Assembly: GCA_018266075.1 (NCBI GenBank)
Contig: JAFEBB010000024.1
Coordinates: 1 to 64,000 of the forward strand
Direction of reading: 5' to 3'
From: Deltaproteobacteria bacterium
GTDB lineage: Bacteria; Myxococcota; Myxococcia; Myxococcales; SZAS-1
DNA: 64,000 nt
In this document: in pieces, positions 2,938-7,275 of the stretch
How the letters are laid out: every line of letters begins with the position of its first letter
Numbering within the stretch: the stretch's first letter is position 1
The notes under the pieces: model-generated
Told to the model about the DNA's origin: nothing
Database searches by the model: none
Seen by the model: only the letters and a program-made list of their open reading frames with translations
Translations under genes and position numbers: made by a program

Positions 2938-3849
<912 letters not shown>

Positions 3850-3869: not shown

Positions 3870-5597
3870 TCAGGACGCCGTGCTCTCCGGCTCGCGTCCG
3901 CCCTCGGCGCCGCCTTCCGTGGTCCCGCGCTTGCGCGTGGTGCCCAGGCCGTACTCGGCGAGCTTCTTGTCCAGCGTAGGCCGGCTGATGCCCAGCAGCC
4001 GCGCGGCTTCGACTTTCTTTCCCGCGGCCTTGGTCATCGCCCGACTGATCGCCTCTCGCTCCACGGCTTCGACGAGCGAGCCCAGCGACTCCTCGCCCAC
4101 CGCCAGCCCCGCGCGGATCTCCGGCGGCAGGTGCTGGGGCAGCACTTCTTCGAGATCGAGCATGTCCAGGCGCTCGATGAGGCCGCTCACCTCGCTGATG
4201 TTCGCGGGGAACGCGTAGGCGGTGAGGCTGGCCTGCGTCTCCGGCGTGAGGCGAAGCGGCCGCGCGTTGGGCGCGCGCCGCGCGAGATCGGCGAAGTGCG
4301 CGAGCAGGAGCGGCAGGTCGCCGGGACGCTCGCGCAGCGGCGGTACTTCGACCTCCACGCCGGCCATGAGGTTCGCGACTTCGAACGGAATGTCGCCGCG
4401 CGCCGCGAGCCGAGCGGGCGGCTCGCGCGAAGTCGAATACAGGCGCACGTCGAAGCGCAGATCGCCGCCATCGGGGCCGGGCGCCTGGCCGCGCTGGAGC
4501 ACGTCCATGAGCCGCGTGGCCAGCGCGCGGTTCAAGGCCTCGAGCCCGAGCAGCAGCAGCGTGCCGCCGTCCGCGCGAGCAAACGCTGACGCGCGATTTC
4601 GCGCACCGAAGAGCAGCTCCTCCGCGCGCGGCGAGCGCAGGTCCACCACGCCGAGCGGCTGCATGGAGCGCGGGCCGCGGGCGATGGAGAAGCGCGCCAG
4701 CGTCTGCTTGCCGGTGCCGCGCTCGCCCACGAAGCACGCGGGCAGATCGCTGTAGGCAACTTTTCGCGCCAGCTCCAGGACGCGACGGAACGGGCGGCTC
4801 TGGCCCACCAGCATCGCGTCCGACTCGGCGTCCTCGTCGCGCTGGCGGAGCGCGGTCATGGCCTGGGCGGCGAGACGGGCCACGCTCGCAAGCAGCGAGA
4901 GCTCATCGCGGGCGAAGACCTCGTCGGTGCGCTGCACGAAGAGCAGGCCCAGCACCTCGCCGGTGCGCAGCGCGATGGGCGCCGACGCCGCTGGCCCGAG
5001 CCGCGCCACCTGGCGCTCCTCGATGCCCGCGCGCACCAGCCCGCGGGGCACGGCTGCCTCGCGCGCACCCTGCACCACCGCGGGCACGAGCGTGCCCTCT
5101 TGCAGAATCAGCGCGCTGACCACGTCGGCGCCGAGCGCGCGCGTCACCTCTTCGGCCACGCGCCGCGCCACCGCGCCTGCGCTGGAGGCGTTCAAGAGCT
5201 GCGCCGAGACGGCGAGCAGCACGCCCTCGTTGCCCGCGAAGGGCAGCAGATCTTCGGCGGCGTAGGTGATGTCCGGCTCGGGCTGCGGCCCTTCGGCGAC
5301 CTCGGCCGCGAGCGGCGGATCCACCACGAACGCGGTCGAGCCAATGGTCACGCGGTCGCCGGGCTCGAGCGCGCGTGCGCCTTCGATGCGCTCGCCGTTC
5401 ACGAACGTGCCGTTGCGCGAGCCGAGGTCGGTGATGTTGAGCTTGCCGGCCTGCACCTCGAGGCGCGCGTGGCGGCGCGAGGCGCGCGAGTCAGCCAGGG
5501 CGATCTCGCACGACGGCGAACGGCCGAGCGTGGCTTCGCCCTGCACGACGAAGCGGGAGCCCGAGAGCGGGCCGGTCGCGGCGACCAAAGACGGCAT
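3870..5597 (-). CDS. FHA-GAF-AAA-HTH protein, degenerate sigma-54 activator-like
   Basis: 575 residues. An FHA domain (about 1-92, with GRSPSCEIALADSRASRRH and GSRNGTF) reads phosphothreonine; a GAF-like domain follows (about 120-255); then an AAA+ module (265-490) and a Fis-type helix-turn-helix (505-552, with AARLLGISRPTLDKKL). The layout is that of myxobacterial FHA-linked enhancer-binding proteins. The motor is damaged: a P-loop like GERGTGK (291-297) remains, but the GAFTGA loop that touches sigma-54 is missing between LFG (329) and the Walker B strand, the Walker B Asp-Glu is replaced (GGTLLLLGL, 344-352), and the arginine fingers and sensor II Arg are gone. I infer a DNA-binding, phosphopeptide-responsive regulator that cannot open sigma-54 promoters. 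Confidence 0.85.
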   Translation of the reverse strand: MPSLVAATGPLSGSRFVVQGEATLGRSPSCEIALADSRASRRHARLEVQAGKLNITDLGSRNGTFVNGERIEGARALEPGDRVTIGSTAFVVDPPLAAEVAEGPQPEPDITYAAEDLLPFAGNEGVLLAVSAQLLNASSAGAVARRVAEEVTRALGADVVSALILQEGTLVPAVVQGAREAAVPRGLVRAGIEERQVARLGPAASAPIALRTGEVLGLLFVQRTDEVFARDELSLLASVARLAAQAMTALRQRDEDAESDAMLVGQSRPFRRVLELARKVAYSDLPACFVGERGTGKQTLARFSIARGPRSMQPLGVVDLRSPRAEELLFGARNRASAFARADGGTLLLLGLEALNRALATRLMDVLQRGQAPGPDGGDLRFDVRLYSTSREPPARLAARGDIPFEVANLMAGVEVEVPPLRERPGDLPLLLAHFADLARRAPNARPLRLTPETQASLTAYAFPANISEVSGLIERLDMLDLEEVLPQHLPPEIRAGLAVGEESLGSLVEAVEREAISRAMTKAAGKKVEAARLLGISRPTLDKKLAEYGLGTTRKRGTTEGGAEGGREPESTAS

Positions 5598-5639
5598 GGA
5601 TCGAGGTTACCCCGAGCGCCGCGGATTCCGAAGCGAGCC

Positions 5640-6254
5640 CTAGAGATATTTCTCGATCTGCTTGAACACCTCGATGCGATCCACGAGGTCGGAGAGATAG
5701 TCGAGCCGGTCGGTGGGAAGGGTGATCACCGGCGAGAGGTCGTAGCGGCTGAACCAGTCCTCGTAGAGGTCGTTCAGGCGCTTGAGGTACGCGGTGGGGA
5801 TGTCCTGCTCCATGGCCCGGCCGCGGCCGCGGATGCGTTCCTTGAGGGTCTTCACCGGGCAGCGCAGGTAGATCATCAAGTCCGGTGGCGCGAGCGCGCG
5901 GGAGACGATCTCGTAGAGCTCGCTGTAGGTCTTCCAATCGCGTGCGTCGATGGCCTTGGTGTGGTGCAGGTTGCGCGCGAAGATCTCCGCGTCTTCGTAG
6001 ATGGTGCGGTCCTGCAGCACGGTGCCCGGCTCCTTCTCGAGCTCGCGGTGCAGCCGGAACTTGTGGGTGAGGAAGTAGATCTGCGACTTGAAGGCGTAGC
6101 CCTTCATGTCGGCGTAGAAGTCTTCGAGGTACGGGTTGGTGTCGTTGGGCTCGAAGAACGGCTTCACCGGGTACTTCTTGCAGAGGAAGCTCACGAGCTC
6201 CGTCTTGCCTGCGCCGATGTTGCCGGCGACCGCGATGAAGCGCTTTCGCGACAT
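5640..6254 (-). CDS. Deoxynucleoside kinase (dNK/dCK-dGK family)
   Basis: 204 residues, the usual size for bacterial deoxyadenosine/deoxyguanosine/deoxycytidine kinases. It phosphorylates deoxynucleosides to 5'-monophosphates with ATP or another NTP in the cytoplasm, as part of DNA-precursor salvage. Visible landmarks are the P-loop GNIGAGKT (11-18), the substrate-site glutamate FFEP near 35, the catalytic DRTIYED stretch near 80-90, and the arginine-rich lid RIRGRGRAMEQ near 140. Which base it prefers cannot be told from sequence. It pairs functionally with the thymidine kinase at 55466. The promoter region upstream holds a heptamer repeat (6306-6345). Confidence 0.9.
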   Translation of the reverse strand: MSRKRFIAVAGNIGAGKTELVSFLCKKYPVKPFFEPNDTNPYLEDFYADMKGYAFKSQIYFLTHKFRLHRELEKEPGTVLQDRTIYEDAEIFARNLHHTKAIDARDWKTYSELYEIVSRALAPPDLMIYLRCPVKTLKERIRGRGRAMEQDIPTAYLKRLNDLYEDWFSRYDLSPVITLPTDRLDYLSDLVDRIEVFKQIEKYL

Positions 6255-6424: not shown

Positions 6425-7156
6425 TCAATGAACCAGATTGGCGACCACGCCCATCACCGCGCCGGCCGCGGTGGCGGCGCCGCCGCCCATCAGGAAGTAC
6501 TTGCTCTGCTTCACGCTGTGGCCGAGCAGGGCGTCGCGGTTCTTGTTCGAGAGGATGAGCGAGGCCCACTTGGGCGCCACCACGCTGGTGCCCTGCTCGG
6601 CCACGCGGCCGCACACGAAGAGCTTGTCCTGCGGCGCGAGGATGCGCTCCTCGACCTTGAACTTGGCGCCCAGCGGAACCGTCCGCGTGGTCACGCGCAG
6701 GTTGCCGAAGACGAGCTCGTCGCCCTTGATGGAGCCCACGAGGCCGGCCTTCTTCTCCTCGTTGAAGGAGGTGCTCATGTCGAAGTCGCCCTCCTCGCTG
6801 ATCTCCACCCGCACCGCGCCCGTGCCGTCGTCCACGAGGAGCGCCGAGCCGAGCCTGGACTCGTCGAGGACCTTCTCCACGCTGCTGTCGCCGTCCTTCC
6901 AGCTGGCGATGACCTTGTAGCTGTAGAAGTGACAGGGCTTGCCGGAGACCGGAGCCGTCAACAGGCCCGGCGCCTTCACCGAGCCCTCGAAGCTGATGGC
7001 GCCCTTCTCGCCGGCCACCGCGAGGCCCTGCTGGGCGGCGTCGCCGGTCTTCACGAACGGCGTCTTGGCGATGCGGCCCGCGCGGTACTTCTGCATGGCG
7101 CCCCAGATGCAGCCGACGATTCCCAGCGCCACCATCACGACAGCCAAGCCAGCCAT
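6425..7156 (-). CDS. Membrane protein with GIDE (MUL1-like) domain
   Basis: 243 residues with the start at 7156, where GGGGAG lies 7 bases upstream; a longer frame exists but lacks a ribosome site. A membrane segment sits at each end (about 2-20 and 220-240), with the conserved middle between them. That middle resembles the GIDE domain of the eukaryotic mitochondrial ligase MUL1/MAPL (features such as GKPCHFY near 80, a DDGTGAVRV strand, and AEQGTSVV later), but there is no RING finger. Bacterial members are of unknown function. It is divergent from plsC, so a role in envelope or lipid homeostasis is possible but only inferred. Own terminator at 6346-6385. Confidence 0.7.
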   Translation of the reverse strand: MAGLAVVMVALGIVGCIWGAMQKYRAGRIAKTPFVKTGDAAQQGLAVAGEKGAISFEGSVKAPGLLTAPVSGKPCHFYSYKVIASWKDGDSSVEKVLDESRLGSALLVDDGTGAVRVEISEEGDFDMSTSFNEEKKAGLVGSIKGDELVFGNLRVTTRTVPLGAKFKVEERILAPQDKLFVCGRVAEQGTSVVAPKWASLILSNKNRDALLGHSVKQSKYFLMGGGAATAAGAVMGVVANLVH

Positions 7157-7275
7157 GGTCGTCTCCCCGGTGTCTCGACGGAGCGGGCGAGCGCGCGGTC
7201 CGTCGGCGTATGCGAGTCCAACGGGGCGCCTTGACGCGCTGTGCAAGCTTTCTGCGCCCCGCTGCTCGGGCGGCG

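Follow-up and report, generated by a model that had tools for sequence, protein, structure and literature searches.

An FHA-bearing, sigma-54 activator-like protein family of Myxococcaceae without most of the motor motifs

Introduction

Work on sigma-54 and on Ser/Thr-kinase signalling uses Myxococcus xanthus as a model, and 53 EBPs are attributed to this species. Loss of the GAFTGA motif together with sigma-54 independence is already known as a kind of change: VpsR, DhaR, TyrR, HupR and some NtrC proteins (R. capsulatus, Caulobacter) have lost the motif and are reported or inferred to be sigma-54-independent, TyrR, HupR and these NtrC proteins being described as sigma-70-type regulators (PMC3162934, PMC10274813). 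VpsR of Vibrio cholerae, whose structure is solved (7v2b), has a deleted L1 loop, LLLNDI at Walker B and FNEELYHYI at the arginine fingers, and keeps Walker A. In DhaR of E. coli, L1 is deleted, Walker B is degenerate (FLEKIE) and the fingers are lost. TyrR is degenerate at L1 only: it retains Walker B and the fingers, and its sensory domain is other than FHA-GAF. HupR and the NtrC proteins, compared here by literature description, lack GAFTGA and likewise carry other sensory domains.

We analysed a 64,000-nucleotide stretch of a Deltaproteobacteria bacterium genome (contig JAFEBB010000024.1; hereafter the window). In it, an initial annotation had described one gene as coding for a sigma-54 activator-like protein that has lost its motor and kept its FHA and HTH domains.

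Anatomy of the window gene

Pfam and an alignment with 41 EBPs bear out this description, and the frame is open over the proposed 575 residues, at exactly 3870-5597 (Table 1). The initial annotation missed the GAF domain between FHA and AAA+, the intact Walker A and the age of the family. The Sigma54_activat match (PF00158) is weak, about 38 bits (37.6 / 39) over residues 263-392.

Table 1. Features of the regulator gene and its immediate neighbours, in window coordinates.
Feature	Coordinates	Strand	Basis and remarks
Motor-dead EBP-like regulator, FHA-GAF-AAA+-lid-HTH	3870..5597	-	575 aa, ATG start; ORF and Pfam
FHA domain, residues 23-86	5340..5531	-	Pfam, 70 bits
GAF domain, residues 142-247	4857..5174	-	Pfam, 31.6 bits against a cut-off of 22.4
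Degenerate AAA+ domain, residues 263-421	4335..4811	-	Pfam, AlphaFold2 model, fold match
Walker A GERGTGK, residues 291-297, intact	4707..4727	-	Alignment
Site of deleted L1/GAFTGA loop, about residues 330-335	4593..4610	-	Gap in alignment
LLLLGL in place of Walker B LFLDE[IV], residues 347-352	4542..4559	-	Alignment
IPFEVANLM in place of arginine fingers FREDLYYRL, residues 403-411	4365..4391	-	Alignment
AAA+ lid, residues 422-497	4107..4334	-	Pfam AAA_lid_14
Sensor II segment FPANISEV (usual WPGNVREL), residues 463-470, Ser468 for Arg	4188..4211	-	Alignment
Fis-type HTH, residues 509-549	3951..4073	-	Pfam HTH_8
Deoxynucleoside kinase (dNK), upstream neighbour	5640..6254	-	Pfam dNK
Pseudouridine-5'-phosphate glycosidase-like (psuG, Indigoidine_A), downstream neighbour	2938..3849	-	Pfam PF04227
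Candidate sigma-70-type promoter TTCGGA-N17-TAACCT, 6 bases before ATG	5604..5632	-	Weak, by eye

The GAFTGA loop is deleted; L350 and G351 stand at the Walker B acidic pair, P404 and L410 at the arginine fingers, and S468 at the sensor II Arg. These four losses had all been claimed, and the alignment upholds each of them for the window protein. The broader statement that every functional motif is gone fails at Walker A, and the sensor II loss does not extend to the family, since 54 of the 76 orthologues described below have Arg there. Judged by descent (N-terminal FHA, central AAA+, Fis-type HTH and its place in the tree) the protein is an FHA-EBP; judged by the motifs tested it does not qualify as a functional bEBP, although an AAA+ fold with Walker A is recognised by Pfam and in the model. 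The sigma-54-independent EBP relatives, too, have an EBP fold that lacks the GAFTGA loop.

An AlphaFold2 model of the protein (mean pLDDT 85.7) has an ordered EBP AAA+ fold, which fits FlrC, NtrX, LuxO and FleQ at Z of about 26 and VpsR (7v2b) at 24.5; the modelled FHA domain resembles GarA/OdhI in its fold match. With the fold intact in the model and the catalytic residues gone, the AAA+ domain seems to have been retained as a folded part minus the residues of catalysis. The FleQ-type c-di-GMP site has the motif LFRS; by eye, it is absent from the stretch preceding Walker A (AESDAMLVGQS), and such a site was rejected.

A search of the same genome with PF00158 gave 52 matches, and 41 other EBPs (165-255 bits) were aligned with the window protein; the low-scoring match L182, with none of the EBP motifs, was left out. 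None of the 41 lacks the Walker A Lys, the DE of Walker B, the sensor II Arg or the second arginine finger, and 39 have the first finger. The GAFTGA loop has its Phe and its Thr/Ser in every one, several proteins carrying a small variant such as GSFTGA or GAFTDA. Walker A excepted, the window protein is the sole EBP-like protein without the motor motifs among those recovered from this genome.

Orthologues, descent and selection

Nearly every member of family f3 and a single f2 genome hold one full-length match each, at 38-46 % identity; the named loci include those of Myxococcus (M. xanthus, L064), Corallococcus, Archangium, Hyalangium, Pyxidicoccus and Citreicoccus. The initial annotation had proposed a search for orthologues with the same losses; our set comprises 76 distinct sequences, mostly from Myxococcaceae and three of them partial, all without GAFTGA, the Walker B pair and the fingers. 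The L1 loop is gapped in 76/76, and in many f3 orthologues a short conserved stretch containing PGxPP takes its place, which the window copy lacks as well. A DE pair occurs in 0/76, the D and E being replaced everywhere, most often by Q/R/L and by H. Both arginine fingers are replaced throughout, and the alignment has sensor I and the switch Asn likewise altered. Strings resembling GAFTGA or DE that might have been displaced were sought in the 76 sequences by regular expression and alignment, and none was found in place. Displacement by misalignment is very unlikely, because the gap is universal, no DE pair occurs and the AlphaFold2 model fits the EBP fold.

Walker A has its Lys in 54 of the 76 orthologues and Arg in 21. 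Of 75 orthologues, 52 retain both the Walker A Lys and the sensor II Arg, 19 have neither and four depart from this pattern (Fisher p 1e-13, uncorrected for relatedness, so that few events may underlie it); in 71 of 75 the two residues share their fate, as though nucleotide binding went as a unit. The window copy alone pairs the Lys with a Ser at sensor II. The FHA-site residues R26, S40, R41, H43, N62, G63 and N67, those conserved in phosphothreonine-binding FHA domains, do not vary among the 73 orthologues that span them, and of the domains the HTH, with its recognition helix GISRPTLDKK, is the best conserved.

In an IQ-TREE tree of 70 proteins, whose bootstrap is not fully settled, the dead family forms a single clade (100/100) nested within motor-intact FHA-GAF EBPs (96/90) and separate from the genome's other EBPs; in the alignment with FHA-EBPs that had been advised, the losses stand. 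The stem branch of the clade is long (0.61), and so is the end branch of the window copy (0.65). Two divergent f9 proteins (L031, L033) show the same losses, with psuG directly downstream of both. On the simplest reading of the tree the motor was lost once, before f1, f2, f3 and f9 split. Eleven orthologue pairs, drawn from relatives as the window copy has no close relative for testing, give dN/dS values of 0.02-0.24 for the AAA+ region, which resemble those of its companion domains: in these relatives, purifying selection acts on the dead AAA+ domain. By the sequence evidence this is an ancient motor-dead family as opposed to a single decayed gene, and the new role that had been argued from the open frame gains support from conservation and purifying selection.

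The motor-intact myxobacterial FHA-EBPs (e.g. L036) are nearest in the tree and share the domain order and an HTH reading GISRPTLD[KR]K; they retain GAFTGA, Walker B DE and fingers, whereas the dead family is without all three. VpsR (28 % identity) differs in its receiver-type N-terminus and c-di-GMP ligand, with no FHA-GAF, and in a milder Walker B change; DhaR (29 % identity over 299 residues) has no FHA. DhaR (PRK11388) is the best NCBIfam profile match of the window protein, but at 104.9 bits it lies far under the curated cut-off of 551, and membership of the DhaR family was rejected. So was identity with MXAN_4899, which has 459 aa, the M. xanthus orthologue (L064, 10001-11701) having 566 aa. 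By anatomy the dead family falls in the sigma-54-independent class, as what appears to be a separate FHA-bearing lineage with losses wider than those of VpsR or DhaR. In the literature searched, which did not include Jelsbak et al. 2005 on M. xanthus FHA-EBPs, we found no description of the family, which does not establish that there is none.

Proposed function

We consider it probable that the family represents a sigma-54-independent, non-hydrolysing transcription factor, gated through FHA or GAF and descended from an FHA-GAF sigma-54 activator. The dead version is conserved under selection in nearly all examined Myxococcaceae, which points to what is probably a DNA-binding switch without a motor. 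Since the Walker B acids, the fingers and the GAFTGA loop are absent, ATP-driven remodelling of the sigma-54 polymerase is not expected; the AAA+ domain would neither hydrolyse ATP nor engage sigma-54, and would persist as a folded scaffold that probably serves self-association. A scaffold AAA+ with FHA/GAF inputs is to be expected given that DhaR and VpsR degenerate at the same places and TyrR at L1. Binding of ATP through Walker A may persist in most species, and some nucleotide-dependent function may remain, given how often orthologues keep the Walker A Lys together with the sensor II Arg.

As for the inputs, FHA might dock a partner bearing phosphothreonine, GAF might bind a small ligand, or both. 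The invariant FHA-site residues make phosphothreonine gating plausible, and GAF is a possible second input. Either signal could change the assembly and, through it, DNA binding by the Fis-type HTH, perhaps near a sigma-70-type promoter, with repression or recruitment of polymerase as the output; between repression and sigma-70-type activation the sequence cannot tell. A bolder version is rather doubtful, if worth stating: across Myxococcaceae, a Ser/Thr-kinase signal through FHA, perhaps with a ligand through GAF, would switch the AAA+ scaffold on sigma-70-type promoters in place of a power stroke, or else the family would dampen the cell's true sigma-54 activators.

Other roles have been weighed against this motor-free switch. 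That the dead protein poisons competent EBPs in hetero-oligomers, or competes for shared DNA sites, and so tunes them down, is unlikely, if the foremost among the rivals: M. xanthus EBPs are reported as hetero-oligomers (the title of Volz et al. 2012, as cited in PMC4880591), and some genomes carry intact FHA-GAF EBPs with the closely similar recognition helix GISRPTLDRK, but such an intact sister occurs in only a subset of the genomes holding the dead protein. Somewhat less likely still is a role outside transcription, in which FHA and GAF would form a signalling scaffold and the HTH serve merely for dimerisation. The invariant FHA site and the metabolic enzymes encoded next door would suit it, but the recognition helix, better conserved than any other part of the protein, is hard to reconcile with it.

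That the protein still works as a sigma-54 activator, its motifs displaced or substituted, is highly improbable: the intact Walker A in the window copy and most orthologues, the sensor II Arg in most of them and the preserved fold would speak for it, yet the gapped L1, the missing DE pair and fingers and the changed sensor I and switch Asn oppose it, and no GAFTGA string occurs elsewhere in the orthologue sequences. Decay into a pseudogene is the least credible reading, and is already refuted for the family. The long end branch of the window copy and its unique Walker A Lys and sensor II Ser combination would agree with decay, but its 575 codons are open and it aligns over its full length with dozens of orthologues. 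The conserved gene order and the purifying selection seen among relatives argue against chance as well as against a pseudogene.

From these sequences, it is very unlikely that this EBP-like gene of nearly all Myxococcaceae acts as a motor-driven activator, so counts of EBPs need a motif filter. The orthologues that jointly kept or lost the Walker A Lys and the sensor II Arg form a natural series, with which the role of an AAA+ scaffold after the end of catalysis can be probed, and phosphothreonine-gated DNA binding becomes directly testable in M. xanthus.

Genomic neighbourhood

The gene order dNK-(DUF4026/2314 gene, in f3)-regulator-psuG is conserved: in 41 of 42 loci a same-strand dNK precedes the regulator, and in 39 of 41 psuG follows it. 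In many Myxococcus-type loci the regulator and psuG are about 1 kb apart, and in M. xanthus an opposing EamA gene lies between them. The gene between dNK and regulator, found in f3 and absent from the window, has weak DUF4026_C and DUF2314 matches (L064, 8656-9945, + strand). This synteny suggests a regulator acting on nucleoside salvage, and a regulatory link with the neighbouring salvage genes is possible. The link may be loose, because genus g11 has dropped the regulator and left the cluster undisturbed: in four genomes (L185-L188; G069, G010, G073, G079) dNK, the DUF4026/2314 gene and psuG sit side by side, with 22-31 bases separating the DUF-gene and psuG matches, which by sequence is a clean lineage-specific loss. 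As psuG is also present in families without the regulator, it was rejected as an obligate partner.

The initial annotation had proposed looking for a conserved DNA target. Palindromes with 5-base arms were sought upstream of dNK, regulator and psuG, with 100 shuffles as the null, and revealed no target (best counts 1-3, null maxima 2-4); the lone excess, a weak one, is CGCGC with a gap of 10, seen ahead of the regulator in 3 of 20 loci against a null maximum of 2. With one strict pattern, no sigma-54 consensus was found upstream of the three genes. Upstream of the M. xanthus regulator, TTGCCC-N16-TAGGCT is seen by eye 9 bases before the ATG. Also by eye, several genera (L059-L080) have a sigma-70-like -35/-10 pair ending 6-9 bases before the ATG; a pair so close would yield a leaderless or nearly leaderless transcript.

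Two smaller observations concern the surrounding records. The L060 record, titled Comamonas sp. KCTC 72670, has a Myxococcus-type locus, and its label looks wrong. In the window, the protein encoded at 6425-7246 (- strand) has a weak match, 27.8 bits against a cut-off of 23.6, to the GIDE domain, whose name comes from a eukaryotic E3 ubiquitin ligase.
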